DNA from: Burkholderiaceae bacterium
GTDB lineage: Bacteria > Pseudomonadota > Gammaproteobacteria > Burkholderiales > Burkholderiaceae
NCBI GenBank assembly: GCA_018261955.1
Contig: JAGTRK010000004.1
Span: 1-64,000 of the forward strand
DNA: 64,000 nucleotides
Direction: 5' to 3'
The notes beneath the pieces are model-generated. The model was not told the origin of the DNA. It worked only from the letters and a program-made list of their open reading frames with translations, and ran no database searches. Position numbers and translations under genes: made by a program. The first letter of the stretch is position 1. Every line of letters starts with the position of its first letter. Positions 46,312 through 49,924 of the stretch are shown here, one piece after another.

Positions 46312-46638
46312 TTAAAACGGCAACTTCATGCCCGCAGGTAAATTCATGCCTGATGTGAGTTTGCCCATGTGTGCCGCACTAGCTTCTTCGGCACGGCGCA
46401 CCGCATCATTAACTGCAGCCGCAACCAAATCCTCTATCATGTCTTTGTCGTCTTCCATCAATGATGGATCAATTTGTACGCGTTTCACGCCAAATTTGCA
46501 GTTCATGGTCACTTTAACCAAACCCGCGCCCGACTGCCCTTCGACCTCAATGTTAACCAGTTCGTCTTGGGCTTTTTTCATGTCGTCTTGCATTTTTTGC
46601 GCTTGCTTCATTAAGCCAGCCAATTGATTTTTCATCAT
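46312..46638 (-). CDS. ybaB: YbaB/EbfC nucleoid-associated protein
   Basis: A 108-residue DNA-binding protein, conserved beside dnaX. The hallmark is an N-terminal [22 protein letters not shown] helix, then [33 protein letters not shown] precedes two adjacent ATGs and I took the first. In relatives it lies right after dnaX and before recR; here a YjdF-like gene is inserted between dnaX and ybaB and recR is not found. Confidence 0.95.
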
Positions 46639-46657: not shown

Positions 46658-47296
46658 TTAATAACGGTTACCCCACAAGCGCCGAGACAATACGCCTATG
46701 AACCCTCCAAAACTTGCAATGAGTGTATCTTTGTGCGAGTCCCACATATCACCTTGTTGCCCATTATAAGCCTCGGTATCTTCGGGTGAAAGCACCATGG
46801 CAGCACCCCACTCAAACCATTCATACCATAAACCCGTCAACATAATGAACGCAAGCGCAATCCATGATGCCATACGCAATTTCAATCGATACCGTTGTTG
46901 TAGCCATTCTGTAATTGCAGGAACAAAACAAAAACCGTACGCCAAGTGAACCAAACGGTCGTAATGATTGCGTTGCCATCCCATCAAAGGGCTGAGTTTA
47001 TTACCAAACAAAGTTTGAAACCAGTCATCATACGGCACAAACGAGTACATCCAGCGTGCACCGATTGAATGCAATGCCACAAGTATCGTAACCAATATGA
47101 ATGCCCATCGGCTCATGCGATAATGCCGCATGTAAACATACCACAACCCGAATCCCAAAACCGTTAACGAATGATGCAGTGCCTGCTCGTACGGCGCGGG
47201 CGGATTCCACCAAGTCAAGGCAATCCCGACGCACAAGATAGAAAACACCATGCGGTAGAAGAAGGTGTTTGACTGTTGGTACCGTTTAACATTCAT
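46658..47296 (-). CDS. DUF2238 (YjdF-like) inner-membrane protein
   Basis: A 212-residue protein with about six hydrophobic segments and the DUF2238 landmarks: YDRLVHLAYGFCFVPAITE, WYEWFEWGAAMVLSPEDTEAYNG reading as EWFEW then GDMWDSHKD. These acidic and His residues face the membrane and suggest metal or proton binding, but the function is unknown. The start lies six bases past the dnaX tau stop codon, and ybaB follows 19 bases later, so it belongs to the dnaX operon. Confidence 0.88.
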   Translation of the reverse strand: MNVKRYQQSNTFFYRMVFSILCVGIALTWWNPPAPYEQALHHSLTVLGFGLWYVYMRHYRMSRWAFILVTILVALHSIGARWMYSFVPYDDWFQTLFGNKLSPLMGWQRNHYDRLVHLAYGFCFVPAITEWLQQRYRLKLRMASWIALAFIMLTGLWYEWFEWGAAMVLSPEDTEAYNGQQGDMWDSHKDTLIASFGGFIGVLSRRLWGNRY

Positions 47297-47302
47297 GCTG
47301 TC

Positions 47303-48984
47303 TTAGTCAGGCTTAATGGAGTTCGGCAAAATCATACCATCAAACTCACGCACGATGGCGGCGATGGTGGGGTGTTGTTGCACAGCCTGCTTGGCACTTG
47401 CCAGTGAATCATCGCGTTGTTTGGCACTGATTTTTTGCGGGCTATAACGCACTTGACCGATTTCAGCCACTTCAACTTTTAGGGCAGGAACAACTTGCCC
47501 CAGCTGCGTAAAATAGTTTTTGAGTGCCGAACGCAAGGTATTTAAGGCGTTGTCATCGGTTGCCAAACTGAGTTTCTCACAGCGCAAAGTCATCATCGCC
47601 TCGCTCAATGATACCAATTCACTTTGACGTGCCAATTGCCCCGCAAAGGCTTTCAAACCCATGTGTGCGACCATATCGACCCACATCTGCGCAAGTGCGG
47701 AGGCATCACCTACAAACTCAGGTGTTGGCGATGCGGATGCCACCAGTGGTGGTGTTGATGGGGCGACCAATGATTCGGTTTCGAGCGCAACTTCTACGGG
47801 CTTTATCGACACAGGCATCATCGGTGAAGCAGATGTGTGCTGTGTGGCGGCAGGCTTGGAAGTTGCGCTGATTACTTTTTTACGCTGTCTGCCTTAAAAT
47901 GCTCGGGCGCAAAAGCCAACAGCCGCAACAGCATCATGGTAAAACCCGCCTGCGCATCGGGTGCTAAATGCAGTTGCTCACGCGCTTGGGTGACGATGCT
48001 GTAGTACAACTGCACCTCATCCGCGCCCATCTCAGGCGCAAGTTCGCGCACAATTTTTGCCAAGGTAAAGTCATCGGGTACGGCATCGGGCACGATTTGC
48101 GCCAAACTGATGCGGTACAGCACCTGCGCCAGTTCAATCGTCGCGTCCAAAAATGAGGTCGATTGGCTCGCCATTTGCTCGGCAATATCCACCAAAGTTT
48201 TACCATCGCGTGCAATCAAAGCGCGCAGTATCGCCTCAATCTGCGCACTGTCGGTCGCGCCGAGCATGTCTTTAACCGCTGCTGTGCTGACATTGGATGC
48301 AGAAAAGGCAATCGCCTGATCGGTCAATGAGAGCGCGTCGCGCATACTGCCACGCGCACCTTTAGCAATTAAATGCAGGGCTTCTTCTTCAAAACCAACC
48401 TGCTCTGCCGTGAGGATTTTTGACAAATGGGTGACGATGTCCGCAGGCGGCATTTGCTTTAAATTAAATTGCAAACAGCGCGAAAGCACCGTGGGCAGGA
48501 CTTTTTGCGGATCGGTCGTTGCGAGAATAAATAACACATGCGCGGGCGGCTCTTCAAGCGTTTTGAGCAAGGCGTTAAACGCATTTTTCGAGAGCATGTG
48601 TACCTCGTCAATCAGATACACTTTATAACGCCCCGCGGTCGGCATGTATTCGGCATTCTCAATGAGTTGGCGCATATCGTCCACGCCCGTATTGCTTGCC
48701 GCATCAATTTCGAGCAAGTCCACGAACCGCCCCGCGTCGATTTCTTGACAGGTCGCGCACACGCCACAAGGCGTTGCCGAAATGCCCTGTTCACAATTTA
48801 AAGACTTGGCCAAAATCCGCGCAATCGTGGTTTTGCCCACGCCACGCGTCCCCGTGAATAGATACGCATGATGCAAACGTTGCTCAGTCAGCGCGTGGCT
48901 CAGAGCCTTGACCACGTGGTCTTGACCGACCAGTTCGGTGAAGTTTTTGGGTCGCCATTTACGCGCCAGTACTTGTGAACTCAT
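47303..48984 (-). CDS. dnaX: DNA polymerase III tau subunit, made by -1 frameshifting
   Basis: The full tau product, 560 residues, needs one -1 ribosomal shift at 47875–47881. Residues 1–370 are the clamp-loader ATPase shared with gamma. Residues 371–560, read after the shift, start VISATSKPAATQHTS, a flexible linker, followed by the conserved C-terminal tau region (QMWVDMVAHMGLKAFAGQLARQSELVS and onward). Tau links the two core polymerases and the helicase. The downstream segment is open for 190 codons in the shifted frame and keeps tau similarity, so this is a programmed site, not a broken gene. Gamma is listed separately. Confidence 0.9.
47784..47882 (-). promoter_or_regulatory. dnaX programmed -1 frameshift signal
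   Basis: On the minus strand the heptamer A-AAA-AAG (47881 down to 47875) is followed at once by TAA. AAGG lies ten bases upstream, where an SD-like stimulator sits in E. coli dnaX. Five bases downstream, AGCGCAACTTC (47869–47859) can pair perfectly with GAAGTTGCGCT (47794–47784) across a 64-base loop, and an inner ACACAG/CTGTGT pair may subdivide the loop. Heptamer, spacing and stimulator agree with the known mechanism; the long-range stem is my reading. Confidence 0.85.
47872..48984 (-). CDS. dnaX: DNA polymerase III gamma subunit (unshifted dnaX product)
   Basis: A 370-residue clamp-loader ATPase. Walker A is GTRGVGKTTIARIL, the zinc-binding cysteines are in CGVCATCQEI, Walker B is LIDEVHML and the sensor region is ATTDPQKVLPTVLSRC. 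Translation ends at the TAA directly after the slippery heptamer, giving gamma without the tau tail. The gene lies downstream of the SRP RNA on the same strand and heads the yjdF–ybaB group. Confidence 0.96.
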   Translation of the reverse strand: MSSQVLARKWRPKNFTELVGQDHVVKALSHALTEQRLHHAYLFTGTRGVGKTTIARILAKSLNCEQGISATPCGVCATCQEIDAGRFVDLLEIDAASNTGVDDMRQLIENAEYMPTAGRYKVYLIDEVHMLSKNAFNALLKTLEEPPAHVLFILATTDPQKVLPTVLSRCLQFNLKQMPPADIVTHLSKILTAEQVGFEEEALHLIAKGARGSMRDALSLTDQAIAFSASNVSTAAVKDMLGATDSAQIEAILRALIARDGKTLVDIAEQMASQSTSFLDATIELAQVLYRISLAQIVPDAVPDDFTLAKIVRELAPEMGADEVQLYYSIVTQAREQLHLAPDAQAGFTMMLLRLLAFAPEHFKADSVKK

Positions 48985-49012
48985 GGTGTGCTTTCAAACA
49001 AACAGACTATAG

Positions 49013-49249: not shown

Positions 49250-49924
49250 ATGTATTTCAAAAACACCCCTATTAAATTGGTCGATTCACGCACGCATGGC
49301 GCAGGTACGGAACTGTTCATCGTCGAGGGCGATTCTGCCGCCAGTATGGTCGTTAGTCTGCGAGATGGTCGATTTCAAGCGGTATTACCCATGCAAGGTA
49401 AACCTTTAAACGCCATCAAAGCCACGCGCGAAAAAGTGATGCGTTATCCATTATTTAAAGCACTGAGCGAGAGTTTGGGCATAGGTTTGGGTGAGCATTT
49501 TGATGTGCAGAAACTGCAATTTGAGCGAGTGGTTTTACTCTTTGACCCCGATGCCGATGGCATCCACAGTGGCGCGTTGATGTTGCTGTTTTTTTATCAA
49601 TTCATGCGCCCGCTGCTCGAAGCAGGAAAAATTGAAATGGTGCATGCGCCGTGGATGCAGGTGTCCGTCAAAGGTGAGTCGCCGATGTATGCATTCTCAG
49701 AACCCCAAAGCACCTCGCTCATCAGCCAGCTGCGCACACAGGGGCATGACCCCATCACTGTGCGCTATCGCGGTTTGGCGGGCATTGATCGTGAAATTTT
49801 GATGAGTACCTGCATCGAACCCACCACGCGCAACACGCGGGTGATGACGGCGGCGGACGCATTGATGGTGATTGAGGTGTTTGGTGGTGGCACGTCTATT
49901 ACCGAGTTGGCGGTTAAGATTTAA
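49250..49924 (+). CDS. Orphan TOPRIM protein resembling the GyrB/ParE C-terminal half
   Basis: A 224-residue protein that aligns only with the TOPRIM and tail region of type IIA topoisomerase B subunits. Glu26 in ELFIVEGDSAA and the Asp99-x-Asp101-x-Asp103 triad in FDPDADGIHSGAL are the metal ligands; LPMQGKPLNAIKA matches the region between them. The whole GHKL ATPase and transducer domains (about 390 residues) are missing, and there is no upstream remnant of them in the 97 bases to the SRP RNA. It keeps key residues, so it is probably functional rather than decayed. Its partner and role are unknown. No clear ribosome site. Confidence 0.75.
   Translation: MYFKNTPIKLVDSRTHGAGTELFIVEGDSAASMVVSLRDGRFQAVLPMQGKPLNAIKATREKVMRYPLFKALSESLGIGLGEHFDVQKLQFERVVLLFDPDADGIHSGALMLLFFYQFMRPLLEAGKIEMVHAPWMQVSVKGESPMYAFSEPQSTSLISQLRTQGHDPITVRYRGLAGIDREILMSTCIEPTTRNTRVMTAADALMVIEVFGGGTSITELAVKI

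Follow-up and report, generated by a model that had tools for sequence, protein, structure and literature searches.

A probable programmed −1 ribosomal frameshift with reversed product roles in the dnaX gene of a Burkholderiales clade

The window analysed here is a stretch of 64 000 nucleotides from the beginning of contig JAGTRK010000004.1 (Burkholderiaceae bacterium, assembly GCA_018261955.1). It carries a dnaX gene on the minus strand, the zero-frame ORF of which ends in GTA AAA AAG TAA (A-AAA-AAG-TAA at 47881–47872). Read along the minus strand, the elements of the site follow in the order TTTTAAGG CAGACAGCGT AAAAAAG TAATC AGCGCAACTTC (64 nt) GAAGTTGCGCT, and past the slip point the −1 frame contains 190 codons before its stop. 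Re-reading of the sequence showed that the anatomy given in the initial annotation (a heptamer with an abutting TAA, an AAGG 10 nt to its 5′ side and an 11 bp stem starting 5 nt to its 3′ side) is exact to the base. The 190-codon shifted frame with a conserved tau tail, also proposed there, was borne out: it is open down to 47303, matches PF12170 and shows a dN/dS of 0.17–0.20. A search of 47300–49000 against Rfam at E ≤ 10 gave four matches, none of which is a frameshift element. The features of the gene are summarized in Table 1. On its downstream side, a DUF2238 membrane-protein gene (46658–47296, minus strand; PF09997, E = 5.8e-40) lies between the dnaX tail and ybaB (46312–46638); in E. 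coli ybaB comes directly after dnaX, without an intervening gene. On the other side, a 224-residue ORF with a predicted start (49250–49924, plus strand) is divergent from dnaX; its sole Pfam match at E ≤ 0.001 is Toprim (PF01751), and on visual comparison it looks like the C-terminal half of the B subunit of a type II topoisomerase, the ATPase part being absent.

Table 1. Features of the dnaX gene in the window, with the evidence for each.
Feature	Position	Strand	Evidence
Gamma, zero-frame ORF (370 residues)	47872..48984	−	ORF, Pfam, 405 bits to 1jr3_A
Slippery heptamer A AAA AAG (codons 369–370, AAA AAG)	47875..47881	−	In phase at 8/8 sites, two genera
TAA, gamma stop abutting the heptamer	47872..47874	−	Sequence
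AAGG, Shine–Dalgarno-like, 10 nt spacer to the heptamer	47892..47895	−	4-mer at 9–10 nt in 8/8 sites; weak, not significant by duplex energy
Putative stimulatory stem, 5′ arm (+6 to +16 past the heptamer)	47859..47869	−	Pairing, redraws, lineage comparison
Putative stimulatory stem, 3′ arm (+81 to +91)	47784..47794	−	Pairing, redraws, lineage comparison
−1 tail, 190 codons and stop: linker and tau domain V	47303..47875	−	PF12170, NF008975, dN/dS 0.17–0.20

The zero-frame product matches PF13177, PF22608 and PF12169 (the last at residues 232–359), which correspond to the clamp-loader ATPase, the lid and domain III, and its residues 1–361 match residues 1–362 of the E. coli gamma chain (1jr3_A; 373 residues in total). 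Residues 51–187 of the −1 frame match PF12170 (tau subunit domain V; E = 9.8e-8, 32.7 bits with a cut-off of 28.8), a family described as the part of tau that interacts with Pol III alpha, and NF008975 also matches the tail (E = 5.2e-18). Profile matches are thus present for every part of a DnaX protein, i.e. the AAA+ domain, the lid, domain III and tau domain V. The layout is that of a reversed two-ORF dnaX, in which the zero frame ends at the site with the gamma stop and the conserved tail of tau is encoded in the −1 frame. From the sequence, normal decoding is expected to give a gamma subunit of 370 residues and a −1 shift a tau subunit of 560 residues, consisting of gamma and the tail. The long polymerase-holding subunit, tau, is apparently made by a ribosomal slip, because the zero frame of dnaX stops early without a slip of one base back.

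The −1 frame is genuinely protein-coding and under purifying selection. The pairwise dN/dS values of the tail given above were obtained within the window's genus; over its final 300 codons, the gamma ORF has a value of 0.02. In the three pairs of this genus the tail differs at 32/27/74, 35/25/67 and 34/29/80 sites in codon positions 1/2/3, so that the third position accounts for 74 of 133, 67 of 127 and 80 of 143 changes. Tail codons 1–30, which hold the stem, have 22 variable nucleotides out of 90, and codons 31–60 have 61 out of 90. The low variability over the stem-bearing codons is only suggestive as a sign of constraint from the stem, however, because codons 61–90, which belong to domain V, vary as little (23 of 90).

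The split gene is present in all three genomes examined from the window's genus. From the sister genus, dnaX was obtained from five of six genomes, in one of which it is spread over two contigs (L036 is the one that carries the site); none was obtained from the sixth, which is 85% complete. The eight sites read are therefore L002–L004 from the window's genus and L005, L032, L033, L034 and L036 from the sister genus. All eight display A6G in identical phase (X-XXY-YYZ), with the zero-frame stop immediately behind it in four (L002, L003, L004 and L034) and one codon further on in the other four (L005, L032, L033 and L036). The pattern is firm owing to this conservation across two genera, and the site has been kept although dS of the gamma ORF reaches 0.49–0.58 within the window's genus. 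None of the eight split genes has a run of seven or more A residues at the site, and the runs of about 8–10 A that would indicate transcriptional slippage are accordingly lacking. A tree built from 62 DnaX N-termini (L036 was omitted as partial and L098 as very divergent, and the program warned that the bootstrap had not quite settled) places the split genes in a single clade of seven rows with a support of 100/100.

Upstream of the heptamer, Shine–Dalgarno (SD)-like elements were scored as any of the 4-mers AAGG, AGGA, GGAG and GAGG. Such a 4-mer ends 9–10 nt before the heptamer at all eight split sites, close to the 10 nt of E. coli, and the background frequency at this spacing is 1.0–1.4% of in-frame positions in the same genes (1.4% in the window's gene). 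None of 26 unsplit relatives has a 4-mer at that spacing (41 more loci without the anchor motif were not counted). By duplex energy, the elements are not better than synonymous redraws (p = 0.15–0.68), with the E. coli site itself at 0.096. The duplex in the window is weak (−4.1 kcal/mol), as 19% of in-frame positions are equally strong; when strength is ranked along the gene, this proportion ranges from 1.4 to 33.5% across the split sites.

The putative stem of the window consists of 11 Watson–Crick pairs with a formal loop of 64 nt and begins 5 nt past the heptamer. An 11 bp Watson–Crick run at this place was produced by one of 20 000 mononucleotide shuffles; in comparison with codon redraws that keep the protein, the stem has p values of 0.019 (energy) and 0.029 (length). 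A stem can be drawn at each of the eight sites, with the 5′ arm starting at +4 to +8. Its size is 10–11 bp with loops of 62–64 nt in the window's genus, 9 bp with a loop of 33 nt in L032 and L036, 7 bp with 47 nt in L005 and 8 bp with 43 nt in L033, while L034 offers either 10 bp with a loop of 10 nt or 11 bp with a loop of 71 nt. The arms are thus far apart in most cases, unlike those of the local hairpin of E. coli. The stem energy is significant (p < 0.05) against protein-preserving redraws at six of the eight sites, with values of 0.019, 0.022 and 0.011 for L002, L003 and L004 and of 0.022, 0.106, 0.038, 0.048 and 0.116 for L005, L032, L033, L034 and L036, respectively; combining L002, as representative of the window's genus, with the four sister sites other than L036 gives a p value of 3e-4. 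The same test at the same place gave no value under 0.05 for 24 unsplit relatives (out of 54 loci, the others being without the anchor motif or enough sequence). It counts unbroken stems only and is not a sensitive yardstick, since it returns p = 0.40 for the proven E. coli hairpin.

The two arms fit each other best within a lineage, with a mean pairing energy of −15.5 kcal/mol for arms of the same lineage and −7.0 kcal/mol for arms combined from different lineages. Covariation of the arms in relatives had been proposed initially as a check, and when run it gave a divided answer: three compensatory pairs (+12, +14 and +15), which change and are still paired, distinguish the lineages among the six sites in register, but none is found within the window's genus because the shared paired positions are invariant there. 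A low folding energy over the downstream 93 nt is confined to the window's genus (z = −1.8, −3.0 and −1.6), and the sister genus shows no excess folding (z = −0.8 to +0.4). The predicted fold of the window contains further helices within the 64 nt. In this model, the structure is a long irregular hairpin, and the 64-base loop described earlier is only the formal distance between the arms.

The window's assembly contains 35 tRNA matches, and ARAGORN, run on 30 loci, assigned a single tRNA-Lys, with anticodon UUU. Five matches have no locus of their own: two lie within neighbouring loci (Ser and Tyr) and three, of 82–85 nt, are unlike tRNA-Lys. The tRNA-Lys genes of 25 genomes were compared using a pattern search with three mismatches allowed, which a divergent tRNA may escape. 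tRNA-Lys(UUU) without tRNA-Lys(CUU) was found in seven of the eight split-dnaX genomes (the eighth, 70% complete, gave no match), and the 17 unsplit genomes comprise 12 with both and five with UUU only. The lone tRNA-Lys(UUU) is permissive at most as a trait that favours the slip because these five unsplit genomes share it, and its association with the split gene amounts to one event, as the split genomes form one clade. The E. coli dnaX site has been tied to the presence of a sole tRNA-Lys, and two tRNA-Lys may explain the slippage in Thermus, as put forward in PMC5009743.

In 52 of 55 further dnaX loci from the Burkholderiales, a single frame extends over 435 codons or more (in four cases past the end of the fetched stretch or the contig). 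The other three (L095, L096 and L098) have 366–397 codons, belong to genomes of 0.2–0.5 Mb and are perhaps gamma-like without a tau tail. A pattern consisting of the end of domain III followed after 15–45 nt by AAAAAAG was found in two of 399 genomes sampled from the order and three of 369 from the class, with the window's genome in both samples. The three further pattern matches (G517, corresponding to L070/L099/L116, and L118 and L119) were discarded as unsplit genes. The pattern is insensitive, in that its motif part occurs in 26 of 67 unsplit loci, and the samples held no other split-dnaX genome as a positive control. A DnaX family search covered 398 genomes, 390 of which had a match, and short frames were drawn from the best rows; of the 16 short-frame matches checked among those listed, 15 are cut by the end of a contig, and the remaining one is a single frame of 477 codons. 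An in-phase A-AAA-AAG is also seen just past domain III in unsplit dnaX genes of two other Burkholderiales families (L106, L107, L109 and L110 at index 367 and L099 at index 370), where a −1 stop follows 4–6 codons on and an E. coli-type gamma site is possible. L106, L107, L109 and L110 represent four of the ten dnaX loci of their genus, and the heptamer in them was judged to be incidental because it is not conserved within the genus; that of L099 is likewise not conserved in its own genus. One genome (G784; L113) has a second, divergent dnaX of 552 codons, possibly owing to contamination.

These observations make it highly probable that this dnaX undergoes programmed −1 ribosomal frameshifting with the roles of the two products reversed with respect to E. 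coli. In the proposed mechanism, ribosomes on the dnaX mRNA would arrive at A-AAA-AAG, the 16S rRNA would pair with the internal AAGG 10 nt upstream, and unwinding would be opposed by the stem that begins 5 nt downstream. Because of this pairing and resistance, both lysyl-tRNA(UUU) could re-pair one base back, onto AAA-AAA. Unshifted ribosomes would have UAA as their next codon and would release gamma, with domains I–III, and shifted ribosomes would add the 190 codons of the tail to give tau with domain V. We infer that the shift occurs on the ribosome, that the SD-like element and the stem have the roles described and that all tau arises in this way. A shift efficiency near one half, by analogy with E. 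coli, is a guess. A more far-reaching version, which we put forward tentatively and at slightly less than even chances, is that tau comes solely from a high-efficiency slip that was enabled by the loss of tRNA-Lys(CUU), with the tau:gamma ratio set by the wobble of a single kind of tRNA-Lys and with a signal independent of that of E. coli (new site, reversed roles and long-range stem). If this were true, the number of polymerases per clamp loader would, through tau:gamma, depend on this wobble as well.

Tau could also be produced by transcriptional slippage, in which RNA polymerase gains or loses an A and the altered mRNAs are translated normally. Reversed dnaX genes with runs of A7–A10 were ascribed to this process (PMC3711429), and dnaX slippage in Thermus uses A9 (PMC1088944, PMC5009743). 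The run here is exactly A6 followed by G at every one of the eight sites, however, and selection against slippage runs is reported to become apparent at a length of nine in a large share of genomes, with variation among bacteria (PMC1088944). Slippage by the polymerase would not predict the kept phase, the G, the SD-like spacing or the stem, and the tRNA-Lys set of the split-dnaX genomes favours slipping by the ribosome; we regard the transcriptional origin of tau as very unlikely. That the split might reflect a sequencing error in a truly continuous frame, or a recent pseudogene that has lost tau, is suggested by the draft state of the window's assembly (88.7% complete). An assembly error was rejected because the same site is found in all eight split dnaX genes of two genera, in separately assembled genomes including a single-contig one (G061). 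The tail dN/dS, which is not near 1, argues against a pseudogene, and the window's genome contains no second DnaX at E ≤ 1e-60, which argues against both; their probability is negligible.

Translation of the tail alone from an internal start, giving gamma and a free domain V as two proteins, is a further alternative, and the window does have ATG ATG at tail codons 19–20 (47821), which opens an ORF of 172 residues, as does L003. This pair is missing from L004 of the same genus and from all five sister-genus sites, and neither of the two ATG codons of the window nor the next GTG is preceded by an SD (duplex energies of 1.4, 1.4 and 0.3 kcal/mol). Moreover, a free tail would presumably be unable to tether the polymerase to the clamp loader. 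The internal start, neither conserved nor furnished with an SD, was rejected as extremely improbable. Compatible with programmed frameshifting, rather than exclusive of it, is a reading in which the frameshift is real but the long-range stem is not its stimulator, the heptamer and SD-like element being sufficient and the pairing being in part a by-product of codon choice. The modest p value of the window (∼0.02 against codon redraws), the lack of significance for L032 and L036 and the absence of excess overall folding in the sister genus are consistent with it; the concerted changes of the arms between lineages and the significance of six of eight sites against none of 24 controls speak against it. 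We consider it unlikely that the stem has no stimulatory role, while keeping this reading in mind.

The initial annotation had claimed a programmed −1 frameshift in dnaX, which together with the SD-like element and the stem is well supported, but had overlooked that the roles are reversed; its comparison with E. coli holds for the heptamer, and the position and the roles are to be added as differences. The two systems have in common A-AAA-AAG in the same phase, an SD-like element at 10 nt, a downstream stem, a sole tRNA-Lys (PMC5009743 for E. coli) and the products gamma and tau. They differ in that the shift in E. coli leads to gamma and the zero frame to tau, whereas here the shift leads to tau. 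The heptamer here occupies codons 369–370, so that gamma ends just past domain III, and in E. coli it occupies codons 429–430 by the same count. Owing to this difference of 60 codons, the signals of E. coli and of this clade probably arose separately. In addition, the arms of the stem are 10–71 nt apart in the clade (62–64 nt in the window's genus) and the SD-like element of the window is weaker. The dnaX of Thermus thermophilus is likewise a single gene that yields both subunits, gamma and tau, by way of an A-run, but the run is A9 (PMC1088944), tau is encoded in a single ORF and two tRNA-Lys are present (PMC5009743).

Reversed two-ORF dnaX genes are themselves already known (GeneTack 2013; Atkins 2016), mostly with longer A-runs and attributed to transcriptional slippage. 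In PMC3711429, 17 such genes from 12 genera are reported, of which 12 have A7–A10 runs and were suggested to use transcriptional slippage. In this GeneTack cluster and in Chlorobium phaeobacteroides, tau similarly requires a −1 transition between two ORFs; unlike the 12 genes with poly-A runs of 7–10, the present gene combines A6 and G with an SD-like element and a stem, and lies in the Burkholderiales. No publication on a reversed dnaX from Hydromonas or any other member of the Burkholderiales was found among the matches listed from the open-access literature, and the 12 genera of the PMC3711429 cluster could include such a case. The dnaX described here is a well supported new member, of the ribosomal type, of the reversed dnaX genes. 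What it adds is a Burkholderiales clade with A6G, a kept SD spacing, a stem, a matching tRNA-Lys set and a site just past domain III. It makes testable whether recoding at A-AAA-AAG needs a lone tRNA-Lys(UUU), and provides a candidate for a natural stimulator built from distant arms. Automatic annotation may label such dnaX genes as truncated or frameshifted. Tau is described as the subunit that links polymerase and helicase (PMC11470591); the three-part frameshift signal of E. coli appears to have been used separately in the dnaX of this clade, with the roles of the products swapped and with the polymerase–helicase link dependent on recoding.
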